From the NCBI GenBank assembly GCA_021781655.1, contig JAJXWJ010000035.1:1-34162 (forward strand): a stretch of 34,162 nt of DNA, given 5' to 3'. Positions 1,911-5,455 of the stretch are shown piece by piece. Source of the stretch: Bacillota bacterium. GTDB taxonomy: Bacteria > Bacillota > Clostridia > Clostridiales > Clostridiaceae. Both the position numbers and the translations under genes were made by a program. The notes under the pieces are model-generated. The model ran no database searches. It was not told the origin of the DNA and was given only the letters and a program-made list of their open reading frames with translations. Position 1 is the stretch's first letter; the number at the start of each line of letters is the position of its first letter.

Positions 1911-3296
1911 TTAATTTTCTGTTATTGAATTCACAAGTTCTTTAAATCTATTACCTCTAACTTCAAAATTCAAAAACATATCAAAACTTGCACATGCTGG
2001 AGAAAGAGTTACTATATCACCTTTAACTGCTATTTGTTCAGCTTTTTTAACAGCTTCTTCAATATTATTTACTACATATATAGGTATCTCTATTTTTTTA
2101 TTTGCCATAACTTCATCAAATACCTTTTTTATTTTTTCTTTTGTAGCCCCAAATAAAATTAAACTTTTAATACTATCGTAACCTTTTTCAGCTAAAGGCT
2201 CAAATGGTATGAGTTTATCATATCCACCTGCTATTAAAATTACTTTTTCATCAAATGCACTTAAACTAGCTAAGGTTCTAGTTGGACTTGATGCTATTGA
2301 ATCATTATAATAATTTACACCATTTACTTCTTTAATAAATTCTGCTCTATGTTCAACTCCCTTAAAGCTTTTAGCAACTATCCTCATGCTTTCAATACTA
2401 GCATCGTCTACTGTAGCACAAAATGCAGCCAAATAATTTTCTACATTGTGCATCCCTTTTATTATAATTTCGTCCTTTTTACAAACATAATTATCCCTTA
2501 CATATAGATTACCTTCAGAATAATATGCTCCTTTTTTAACTTTTTCTTTAGTGCTAAATTCTAACACTTTACCCTTAACTTCATTTTTCATAGCTGCAGT
2601 AATTTTATTATCTTTGTTTAATATAGTTATTCCATCTTGCATTTGAAATTTAAAAATATTTTTTTTCGCTTCAATATATTCTTCCATTCCTTTATGCATA
2701 TCTAAGTGGTTTGGACTTAAATTTGTAATTACTGAAATGTCGGGAGATACATTCATGGTCATTAATTGAAAACTAGACAGTTCTAATACGACTCTATCTT
2801 CATCTTTTATCTCCTCTATTTTAGTAAATAAAGGTGTTCCTATATTACCACCTACCCATGTTTTATATCCCTCTTGTTTTAAAATATTGTATATTAGAGA
2901 TGTAGTAGTAGTTTTACCATCGCTACCCGTTACTCCTATTATTTTTCCGTTGCAATATTTTACAAACTCCTCCATTTCGGATGTTATATATGCTCCTTCA
3001 TTTTTAGCTTCAACAAATTCTTTTATATCAATCCTCATTGAAGGGGTCTTAAATATAACTTCAAAACCCTTTAAGTTTTCTAGATAATTATCACCTAATT
3101 CCAAATCCACACCCATATTTTCAAGTTCAATTGCTAAATCTTTGATATCTTCTTTATTTTTTTTATCAAAAGCGGTAACCTTTGCACCTAATTTGACCAA
3201 AAAATATATTAACGGTCTGTTACTTATACCTATTCCGACTACTGCTGTTTTTTTATTTTTTATATAATTCTTAAATTCTCCAAAATTTTTATTCAT
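1911..3296 (-). CDS. murD: UDP-N-acetylmuramoyl-L-alanine--D-glutamate ligase
   Basis: Adds D-glutamate to UDP-MurNAc-L-Ala with ATP, a cytoplasmic step of peptidoglycan precursor synthesis. At 461 residues it has the usual family length. Residues 16-25 ([10 protein letters not shown]) begin the N-terminal Rossmann-like UDP-binding domain. The ATP-binding P-loop of Mur ligases is [12 protein letters not shown] (121-132), followed by the SSFQL and [10 protein letters not shown] segments of the central domain. The C-terminal ligase domain contains [16 protein letters not shown] and GGYDK. The ATG is preceded by AGGAGG at 6 bases. It stands alone rather than in a dcw cluster; its likely promoter is at 3418-3446, next to the Spo0A-box-like cluster. 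Confidence 0.95.
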
Positions 3297-3453: not shown

Positions 3454-3488
3454 GTTCGACAATAATATATTGTCGATATTTGTCGTAA
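3454..3488. promoter_or_regulatory. Cluster of three Spo0A-box-like sites between divergent promoters
   Basis: Compared with the known Spo0A box TTTGTCRAA: minus strand ATTGTCGAA (3455-3463), plus strand ATTGTCGAT (3469-3477) and plus strand TTTGTCGTA (3479-3487). The two plus-strand sites are exactly 10 bp apart, one helical turn, as in known tandem 0A boxes. The first two also form a perfect inverted repeat CGACAATA/TATTGTCG (3457-3475). The cluster is about 10 bp upstream of the leftward -35 and about 42 bp upstream of the rightward -35. Binding is inferred from sequence only. Confidence 0.55.
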
Positions 3489-3528
3489 TTTTTAGAATAG
3501 AAAAGCTTGAAAAATATTTTTGTAGGTA

Positions 3529-3558
3529 TTGCATATTTATTCTCACATATGCTATAAT
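3529..3558 (+). promoter_or_regulatory. Rightward promoter of the candidate sRNA
   Basis: TTGCAT (3529-3534), 18 bases, TATAAT (3553-3558) on the plus strand. The start should be near 3564-3566. It is the only convincing plus-strand promoter in the window that leads to a matching terminator. Confidence 0.65.
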
Positions 3559-3564
3559 AATGTT

Positions 3565-3672
3565 GTGCCGTAAGGAAACATTAATATAATTCCCCAAATT
3601 TTAATTGAACATATAACATATCCCCATGATTAAACCCTATTTTTGCCGAACACCGTGTTCGGCATTTTTTTT
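3565..3672 (+). ncRNA. Candidate small RNA of about 108 nt between murD and glyS
   Basis: A near-consensus promoter, an A/U-rich body without a plausible ORF and ribosome site, and a strong terminator bound this unit. The 5' part holds a small stem capped by GTAA (CC-GTAA-GG, 3568-3575). The largely unstructured middle carries three C-rich motifs, TTCCCC (3590-3595), TCCCC (3621-3625) and ACCC (3634-3637). Such motifs pair with G-rich ribosome binding sites in known firmicute sRNAs such as RsaE/RoxS. I do not recognise the RNA as a named family; similarity to RsaE is only in motif type. It runs against the direction of both flanking genes, so it is not simply a leader or 3' UTR. Confidence 0.6.
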
Positions 3673-3677
3673 ATTTT
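3644..3677 (+). terminator. Terminator of the candidate sRNA
   Basis: TGCCGAACAC (3644-3653) pairs with GTGTTCGGCA (3655-3664), at least 8 bp around a short loop, followed by eight T (3665-3672). The minus-strand exit side reads AAAAATAGGG, so the terminator acts for the plus strand only. That is strong support for a rightward transcript. Confidence 0.85.
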
Positions 3678-3751: not shown

Positions 3752-5143
3752 TTAAAAAATCAGTTTATTCTCTAAAAAGTTCTCTAATTCATCAATTTTT
3801 ATTCTTACTTGATCCATTGTATCTCTATCTCTTATAGTTACAGTATCATCTTCTAATGTATCAAAATCAACAGTAATGCAATATGGAGTTCCAATTTCAT
3901 CTTCTCTTCTATATCTCTTTCCTATACTTCCAGCTTCGTCGTAATCGATGTTAAATTTCTTACTTAAACTATCGAAAACCTGTAAAGCTTTATCTGATAA
4001 TTTCTTGCTAAGCGGAAGAATTGCAGCTTTGAAAGGAGCTAGTGCCGGATGTAAATGAAGAACAGTTCTAACATCTCCACCTTCTAATTGTTCTTCGTCA
4101 TATGCATCAACTAGAAATGCCAAAGTCACTCTATCCGCTCCAAGAGATGGCTCTATAACATATGGTACATATTTTTCGTTTGTTACTGGATCTAAATATG
4201 TTAAATCCTCACCAGAATGTTCCATATGTTTCTTTAAGTCATAATCTGTTCTATCAGCTATGCCCCAAAGTTCTCCCCATCCAAAAGGAAATCTGTATTC
4301 TAGGTCTGAAGTTGCTTTGCTGTAAAAAACTAGTTCTTCTTTAGAATGATCCCTCATTCTAATTGATTCTTTTGTAATTCCTAAACCTAATAAAAAATTC
4401 AAGCAATAATCTTTCCAATAATTAAACCATTCTAAATCTGTTCCTGGCTTACAAAAAAACTCTAATTCCATCTGCTCAAATTCTCTTATTCTAAAAATAA
4501 AATTTCCAGGTGTTATTTCATTTCTAAAAGCTTTACCTATTTGACCTATTCCAAATGGTACTTTTTTTCTAGAAGTTCTTTGAACATTTTTAAAATTAAC
4601 AAATATACCCTGTGCAGTCTCAGGTCTCAAGTAAATTTCAGCTTTAGCATCTTCTGTTACACCTTGGTAAGTTTTGTACATCAAATTAAATTTTCTAATA
4701 TCCGTAAAATTAGTTTTGCCACACTTTGGACATGCAATTCCATTTTTATCAATATACTCTTTTAATTGTTCATTGGTAAATCCATCCGCACTTGCTACTT
4801 CTACACCATTATGAGACATATGCTCTTCAACAAGCTTATCTGCTCTAAAACGAGATTTACATTCCTTACAATCCATTAGCGGATCTGAAAAACCTCCAAC
4901 ATGACCAGAAGCTACCCAAACTTCTCTATTCATTAGTATAGCACAATCAAGTCCAACATTATAAGGATTACCTTGAACAAATTTTGACCACCATGCTCTT
5001 TTTATATTGTTTTTAAGTTCTACGCCTAAAGGACCATAATCCCAAGAGTTAGCAAGACCTCCATATATATCTGATCCCGGAAATACAAAGCCTCTGTTTT
5101 TTGCTAATCCAACTATTTTGTCCATTGTTTTTTCAATAGCCAT
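3752..5143 (-). CDS. glyS: Glycyl-tRNA synthetase, class II dimeric type
   Basis: Charges tRNA-Gly in the cytoplasm. At 463 residues it is the single-chain homodimeric form, not the two-gene alpha2beta2 form. The N-terminus has [18 protein letters not shown], typical of this type. Two Cys pairs (CKEC near 87 and CPKC near 138) suggest a zinc-binding insertion. Class II motif 2 is [25 protein letters not shown], here in shorter pieces FRNEITPG and REFEQME, and motif 3 is [14 protein letters not shown]. The C-terminal anticodon-binding domain starts near 365 ([11 protein letters not shown]). The ATG follows AGGAGG closely. Expression should be controlled by the glycine T-box directly upstream (5170-5346), with tRNA-Asn ahead of that on probably the same transcript. 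Confidence 0.96.
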
Positions 5144-5169: not shown

Positions 5170-5238
5170 AAAAAAAGACTAATACCTCTAAGGGACGAAA
5201 GCTATACTTCCGCGGTTCCACCCTTATTGGCATCAGCC
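5170..5238 (-). terminator. Conditional terminator of the glyS T-box
   Basis: GGCTGATGCCAATAAGGG (5221-5238) can pair with CCCTTAGAGGTATTAGTC (5177-5194), 16 of 18 positions, followed by seven T (5170-5176) in the minus direction. This excludes the antiterminator, because both use the AAGGG and CCCTT segments. Confidence 0.85.
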
Positions 5239-5346
5239 CTACTTTTTAAAGTATTACACTCAAAAGCTCCATTCACATCAAAATTATAGTTACTTCCACC
5301 AAACCGTAACCTCTCTAAAAAAAATTTTAATGTTACTTTTCTTTAT
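5170..5346 (-). promoter_or_regulatory. T-box leader (glycine) of glyS
   Basis: The signature T-box AGGGTGGAACCGCGG is at 5211-5225 on the minus strand. Its UGGA matches the UCCA end expected of tRNA-Gly (discriminator U). A compact Stem I is formed by CATTAAAATT and AATTTTGATG, capped by GGTTAC/GTAAC. The AGTA...GAA pair looks like the usual loop E, followed by GGA, a glycine codon and the likely specifier. Antiterminator pairing is AAGGG/CCCTT plus CGGAAG/CTTTCG around the T-box bulge. Uncharged tRNA-Gly would favour read-through into glyS. Confidence 0.92.
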
Positions 5347-5380
5347 CACAGTGTAGTTTATTCATAACAAAAAATAAAAA

Positions 5381-5455
5381 TGGCTCCGCGAAAAGGATTC
5401 GAACCTTCAACCTATCGGTTAACAGCCGAGTGCTCCACCATTGAGCTATCGCGGA
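5381..5455 (-). tRNA. tRNA-Asn (anticodon GTT)
   Basis: A 75-nt cloverleaf with encoded CCA: acceptor TCCGCGA, anticodon loop CTGTTAA and T arm GGTTCGAATCC. It lies only 35 bases ahead of the glyS T-box with no terminator between, so the tRNA is probably processed from the 5' end of the glyS transcript. Confidence 0.96.

Follow-up and report, generated by a model that had tools for sequence, protein, structure and literature searches.

Within a clostridial DNA window (the whole stretch of 34,162 nucleotides analyzed here, labeled contig C47 in G000, a genome of 3.7 Mb), the gap between murD and glyS almost certainly holds a small RNA gene, a conclusion strongly supported by sequence conservation, by synteny, and by covariation in the terminator. 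Our best reading is that the RNA represents an uncatalogued, strikingly conserved family of clostridial trans-acting, C-rich sRNAs, RoxS-like in design and not a RoxS member. An earlier sequence-only reading of the same DNA had proposed a sporulation-linked RNA suited to pairing with ribosome binding sites; its small RNA gene stands and its link to Spo0A finds statistical support, but the proposed pairing with ribosome sites in general does not. The features concerned are the following.

1911–3296, minus strand: murD, the conserved left neighbor, outside the RNA
3455–3461, minus strand: 0A-like box, TTCGACA, an exact TGTCGAA on the minus strand
3471–3497, plus strand: upstream region with tandem 0A-like boxes (TGTCGAT 3471–3477, TGTCGTA 3481–3487, degenerate TTTAGAA 3491–3497)
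3529–3558, plus strand: sigma-A-type promoter (TTGCAT 3529–3534, an 18-nt spacer, extended −10 TGcTATAAT 3550–3558)
about 3565–3671, plus strand: predicted small RNA gene of ~107 nt, starting GTGCCGTAAGG
3565–3609, plus strand: module 1, beginning GTGCCGTAAGGAAACATTAATATAATTCCCC, whose weak AT-rich hairpin has TTCCCC (3590–3595) in its loop
3610–3641, plus strand: module 2, CATATAACATATCCCCATGATTAAACCCTA, predicted unpaired, with TCCCC (3621–3625) and ACCC (3634–3637)
3644–3672, plus strand: intrinsic terminator, stem TGCCGAACA-CCG-TGTTCGGCA (3644–3664, nine pairs), then T8 (3665–3672)
3752–5143, minus strand: glyS (single-chain glycyl-tRNA synthetase), the conserved right neighbor, outside the RNA

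The RNA locus and its conservation

The locus occupies the plus strand of a 455-base gap between two minus-strand genes, which we take from their sequences to be murD and glyS. Its own promoter and intrinsic terminator lie on one strand with a body of about 80 nt between them, the arrangement by which a stand-alone intergenic sRNA is recognized, and its 5′ end was placed from the promoter spacing and from the point at which homologs begin to align (GTGCCGTAAGG). The promoter had been called near-consensus, which is right for its perfect extended −10 but generous for its weak −35, as TTGCAT matches TTGACA at three of six positions and so escapes a promoter scan that needs four. Both elements are nevertheless kept in 60 aligned homologous promoters, as tATTGaAA and TaTGnTATACT. 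The one-sided terminator described about 80 bases past the promoter was found as described, with a nine-pair stem and T8 on the plus strand only, and between 2500 and 5000 three terminator-like sites occur where 0.6 are expected. Across homologs, 96.7% of the cells of its stem are paired, changes on both sides occur at five of six pairs, and the sequence differs between genera, which constitutes covariation.

Homologs of the RNA are widespread in the family. Specifically, a BLASTN search with 156 bases against 98 genomes, including its own, gave matches at E ≤ 1e-10 in 23 of the 97 other same-family genomes, at 77–95% identity (at least 84% in 18 of the 23), and a 32-nt core recurred at E below 1e-7 in nine of 17 genomes of another family of the order, taken as Caloramatoraceae. 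In named genomes of 84,980 species, an exact pattern was found in 48 stretches, all titled Clostridium, Haloimpatiens, Clostridiaceae/Clostridiales bacterium, Caloramator, Fervidicella, or Thermobrachium; carriers include the gas-fermenting C. ljungdahlii and C. carboxidivorans, as well as C. tyrobutyricum. A covariance model was then built from 45 distinct sequences gathered by BLAST and by the exact module 2 pattern, a gathering that favors conserved copies, while the model search itself carried no pattern requirement. The model matched 74 of 206 family genomes at E ≤ 0.01 and 72 at E ≤ 1e-6, the latter carriers spanning 22 of 46 genera with one strong copy each. Diverged homologs (L124–L128, L130, and L131) still match at 45–66 bits, with the C-rich motifs kept and their spacing altered, and three Caloramatoraceae loci match at 40–44 bits. 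At the level of the class (291 genomes), only same-family matches fell below E 0.004, and six matches at E 0.004–0.008, two of which were inspected, were treated as chance, as were those in G138 and G161 (E 3e-4 and 8e-4), where murD and glyS are not nearby. A locus so deeply conserved is more than chance.

The degree of conservation exceeds that of the neighboring gene. Among 39 loci with a full glyS, which were chosen by similarity, mean identity to the window was 92.5% for the RNA body and 97.4% for module 2, as compared with 77.1% for the whole glyS DNA and 56.4% for glyS third codon positions. The RNA body was more identical than third positions in 39 of 39 loci and more so than whole glyS in 35; judged by this comparison, the RNA sequence is under purifying selection.

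Both murD and glyS lie within 1 kb of the RNA in 56 of the 57 distinct Clostridiaceae loci counted, which were module 2 pattern carriers or listed diverged ones, including genera g14, g22, g30, and g35; the exception, G050, has glyS and no murD within 1.5 kb. Outside these 57, G190 has murD at the RNA and glyS on another contig. In Caloramatoraceae, murD lies 1.7–2.7 kb away in seven of eight loci, and in L069 two intervening ORFs carry motifs that we take to be uracil-DNA-glycosylase-like. Absence was checked in the DNA adjoining glyS in 20 no-match genomes, from 16 of 24 match-free genera plus g25: the covariance model gave no match at E ≤ 0.01 beside glyS in any of the 20, and the best score (L163, E 0.035) fell on the wrong strand. 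In 16 of these genomes murD was within the stretch, and in 14 it was separated from glyS by a gap of 101–792 bases. Such a distribution suggests that the RNA has been either kept or lost at a single ancestral site. As a separate observation on this neighborhood, glyS in the window has a T-box leader (5188–5358, minus strand) with a tRNA gene (5384–5455, minus strand) just upstream on the same strand, and the same order is found in C. ljungdahlii (L060; T-box 4328–4496, tRNA 4581–4652).

The upstream block and its candidate regulators

Three 0A-like boxes had been noted upstream of the promoter, two of them 10 bp apart, and all three are present: the exact inverted box at 3455–3461, and TGTCGAT and TGTCGTA, each with one mismatch and followed in phase by the weak TTTAGAA. 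The tandem region, 3471–3497, aligns with a block, GTCgAAATTgtnaGAA, that is conserved in 60 homologous promoters; these distinct promoters align as gTC.AAATTgT.aGAA.aTAtTTAATtTAaaaAcTTTatt, followed by the −35 TATTGaAA and the −10 TaTGnTATACT. By eye, the exact inverted box was not seen at that place in aligned homologs. The same holds (again by eye) for a perfect nine-pair inverted repeat at 3456–3476, TCGACAATA-ATA-TATTGTCGA, which consists of two opposed 0A-like boxes with a weak T run after them.

As described for C. difficile Spo0A in PMC3485338, TGTCGAA is the 0A core used, and G2, C4, and G5 matter for binding. In the 60 promoters, C4 is kept in more than 75%, G2 in over half, and G5 in fewer. 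Exact TGTCGAA occurs in 14 of the 60 (shuffles: mean 0.3, maximum 2), matches within one mismatch in 36 (10.3, maximum 19), and boxes in 10-bp tandem in 13 (0.9, maximum 4), the loci being related, such that shuffles overstate the significance of the enrichment. TGTCGAA further ranks first of its 630 permutations, and box positions peak 70 nt (20 loci) and 80 nt (seven loci) upstream of the TG of the extended −10. Downstream of glyS in non-carriers, by way of control, exact boxes numbered 0 of 20 and one-mismatch boxes eight of 20, vs 5.8 in shuffles. Boxes are not universal: 24 of the 60 promoters, and all eight Caloramatoraceae loci, lack a 0A-like box within one mismatch. Two further comparisons discriminate little. 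The spo0A promoter, used as a positive control, had an exact box in 20 of 20 genomes, but the control is confounded, as the box overlaps what we take to be the sigma-H −10. Likewise, a spo0A gene turned up in 71 of 72 carriers, including G000 (the exception, G219, is 82% complete), but its presence is uninformative for the link, since 124 of 134 non-carriers have it too.

The sporulation link has statistical support: the boxes are enriched, positioned, and in tandem, but they are not universal, and the block they occupy also resembles a CodY site. The main competing reading is that the same RNA answers to another regulator that reads AAATTG-N3-GAA (CodY or some other factor), with the 0A resemblance being secondary. 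AAATT and GAA indeed rank with the best-conserved positions of that block, and the CodY consensus used, AATTTTCWGAAAATT-like, scores above chance (z −6.4), with up to three mismatches in 24 of 60 promoters vs 5.0 in shuffles. Further, the diverged homologs L125, L128, and L130, all without a good 0A box, have two-mismatch CodY-like sites (AACTTTCTGAAAAAT, AATTTTCAGAATATA) where other loci carry the 0A-like block upstream of the RNA, possibly an exchange of regulators. However, TGTCGAA outscores CodY (z −8.5) and brings exact matches and the 10-bp tandem geometry, only one of the 60 promoters reaches two CodY mismatches, and the CodY palindrome is disrupted by a G that in most cases comes directly after AATT. 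We regard control by such another factor as a serious though minority possibility. Control of the RNA by Spo0A we had placed at evenly balanced and, because of the CodY-like sites in diverged homologs, now place slightly below that.

The RNA body and its candidate partners

The predicted fold has hardly any structure apart from the terminator hairpin (−15.2 kcal/mol, z −1.38, with 20 of 200 shuffles folding as well); the folding energy is unremarkable by itself. The hairpin around the first C motif is weak, with 73% of cells paired and double changes at two of 10 pairs, and complete pairing is confined to L039, L046, L057, and L073. The three C-rich motifs singled out in the sequence-only reading are kept in homologs. 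Module 2 is the most conserved part of the RNA and is kept in Caloramatoraceae, where aligned loci have a short GACCCTTT-type stretch in place of module 1 and an additional AACTGACC ahead of the terminator (L086 2750–2840, and others); because of this swap and this addition, the RNA looks modular. In the diverged homologs L124, L125, and L131 (g35) and L126 (g14), an extra C-rich stretch, ATATCCCAT or ATATCCCCAT, is followed by ACCCCATGATTAACCCC or similar, which suggests a duplication of the C-rich motif within the RNA of these homologs.

The C-rich motifs had been proposed to pair with AGGGG-type ribosome binding sites, and the target searches give this no general support. Across 337 translation starts, called with a home-made caller in the window and 344 kb of its genome (~10% of the genome), pairing energies averaged −12.1 kcal/mol for the real RNA and −13.1 kcal/mol for 30 dinucleotide-shuffled versions. 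As its pairing is on average the weaker, the RNA does not appear to be a general anti-Shine-Dalgarno RNA. The two best duplexes, at −28.0 and −27.1 kcal/mol, are unconvincing as targets, since 53 and 17 of 300 shuffles, respectively, equaled or exceeded them (30 and 4 of 300 when ranked by z-score). Pairing with candidate genes was likewise indistinct from shuffles for the neighbor murD (mean z −0.16, 49 loci), acpP (0.44, 28 genomes), the window gene spoIIE (0.19, 24 genomes), and spo0A leaders (0.03, 20 genomes, in none of which did 5% or fewer of the shuffles do as well), such that no target emerged among these sets. In these counts, loci without a start found were dropped (acpP in G006; spoIIE in G046, G020, G206, and G014), as were those split by stops (acpP and spoIIE in G021, spoIIE in G033); in G006 and G196, spoIIE was probably read at the wrong place because contig ends cut these loci. 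The G033 spoIIE homolog (L309) is in two pieces, one with four internal stops (one TGA, three TAG), in a genome that is 99% complete; this split reflects either decay or sequencing error.

For the exact complements ATGGGGATATG and TTGGGGAATTAT, sought in 30 carriers, a start codon with a short upstream open frame followed the match in none of 40 contexts outside the RNA, and several matches were plain coding sequence (e.g., response-regulator codons). Reversed-pattern controls were fewer (56 vs about 139, and 16 vs about 40, with self matches subtracted by estimate), an excess that codon bias could cause. In spo0A leaders, TGGGAATT, which is complementary to AAUUCCC, occurs in 11 of 32 carriers, in 0 of seven genomes with a diverged RNA, and in one of 19 non-carriers (21 were taken, G227 and G228 being dropped for want of a start, and in G010 and G188 the start used seems to be wrong). 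It may be that the element has nothing to do with the RNA and that the carrier difference is phylogenetic. More broadly, the spo0A leaders L310–L369 show a TTGTTAAGATATGGnAAT-like element between the promoter and the ribosome site in many carriers and non-carriers, with three G in part of the carriers and two G (TGGAAT) in 12 of 19 non-carriers (by eye).

These results bear on whether the RNA acts on mRNAs at all. It could instead bind a protein or another RNA, as a sponge or titrator, with its invariant single strand serving as a binding platform; the invariant stretches are longer than the usual 7–9 nt that a seed needs, the target tests were negative, and at translation starts its pairing is weaker than that of shuffled versions. 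However, the targets sampled amount to ~10% of one genome plus four candidate genes, and pairing sRNAs are typically built with exposed C-rich motifs ahead of a terminator that has a U tail. RoxS has C-rich regions likewise (PMC4409812). Such a platform role seems unlikely to us, and we consider that the RNA is probably a base-pairing regulator.

A small peptide is a far weaker candidate. The sequence-only reading saw no believable ORF, and the homologs agree: frames of at least 12 codons do exist in 17 of 45 (maximum 24, some of them across module 1), but the longest frame is at most eight codons in 23 of 45, the longest frames differ in place and phase, and a simple test for a ribosome site was negative for all 17 of the longer ones. 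The spacers between conserved motifs are 13–17 and 21–24 nt long, varying by 1–4 nt and not in multiples of three, which excludes a common reading frame, and coding is accordingly very improbable. Weakest of all, and close to negligible, is the idea that the RNA belongs to a neighboring gene as its leader, attenuator, or 3′ end, which the short intergenic location might suggest but against which stand the RNA's own promoter and terminator, the placement of both neighbors on the other strand, the lack of any listed plus-strand ORF of at least 80 aa between 1 and 5615, and the murD-glyS gap that exists without the RNA in 14 of 20 no-match genomes.

Proposed role and comparison with known RNAs

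Taken together, the locus would produce a stand-alone non-coding sRNA of ~107 nt, transcribed rightward from its own sigma-A promoter and ended by the intrinsic terminator. As many as three single-stranded C-rich sites would be exposed, one of them in a hairpin loop and the other two in the unpaired tail ahead of the terminator. Through these sites the RNA most likely base-pairs, perhaps with the help of Hfq, to G-rich leaders or translation starts in a small and specific group of mRNAs. In the family, hfq is present in 177 of 206 genomes, including G000; Hfq was not found in at least four of the 72 carriers (G014, G178, G219, and G220), and G053 is also not among the matches listed. Transcription would most likely be governed by Spo0A~P through the tandem 0A-like boxes ~70–80 nt upstream of the extended −10, and the RNA would then carry the switch to stationary phase and sporulation to the post-transcriptional level. 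As a whole, this account of a trans-acting, base-pairing, Spo0A-governed sRNA is one that we hold with modest confidence. Bolder, and in our view rather improbable, is the idea that the RNA dates from the common ancestor of Clostridiaceae and Caloramatoraceae and serves as the post-transcriptional arm of Spo0A across many clostridia, feeding back on spo0A itself; the bias of TGGGAATT toward carrier leaders speaks for such feedback, and the pairing energy gives it no support.

If Spo0A drives the RNA, it would offer a route from a transcriptional switch to translational control. Few clostridial sRNAs have, in our judgment, a known function, and the way in which clostridia adjust their entry into sporulation and solvent formation is an open question. 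A single-copy gene of almost fixed sequence in 22 genera is also a simple one to delete and test.

We found no earlier description of the RNA in the literature searched, and a prior computational listing is possible, for example in Chen et al. 2011, which reportedly provides a computational sRNA catalogue of Clostridium. In Rfam, the gap gave no credible match at gathering score or at E up to 10, and no family reached its gathering score for the RNA region of five homologous loci. SorX, MicF, and RprA scored far below gathering (22.4 of 46.6, 25.3 of 79, and 23.7 of 70); they and the window RNA alike have a C-rich stretch and then a terminator hairpin, and we read these weak matches as terminator likeness only. 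The C. acetobutylicum small RNome (PMC3879012) treats clostridial intergenic sRNAs, predicted or detected, and its main text mentions neither glyS nor 3194 or 3195, which we assume to be the relevant locus numbers.

Among sporulation-linked RNAs, SpoX and SpoY are C. difficile sRNAs that were found by Hfq RIL-seq and act on spo0A (PMC10267692). As these are described there, the likeness is that they too are clostridial sRNAs, theirs being tied to the sporulation switch, whereas they act on spo0A mRNA and the window RNA pairs with 20 spo0A leaders as shuffles do.

The comparison with RoxS/RsaE, of Bacillus and Staphylococcus, is one of design. The window RNA belongs to another lineage, RsaE is not among even the weak Rfam matches (the Rfam search being how the sequences were compared), and a ResD-like motif, which we took to be TTTGTGAAT, is not enriched in the promoters (z −0.4); because of the missing Rfam match and the lack of ResD enrichment, we do not file the RNA under RoxS/RsaE. 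According to PMC4409812, those RNAs have conserved C-rich regions, one of them key for binding ribosome sites, and a conserved promoter with a box for the response regulator ResD near −65. It is in these respects that the two resemble one another: each is a small intergenic sRNA that bears several exposed C-rich motifs, with a response-regulator-like box upstream.
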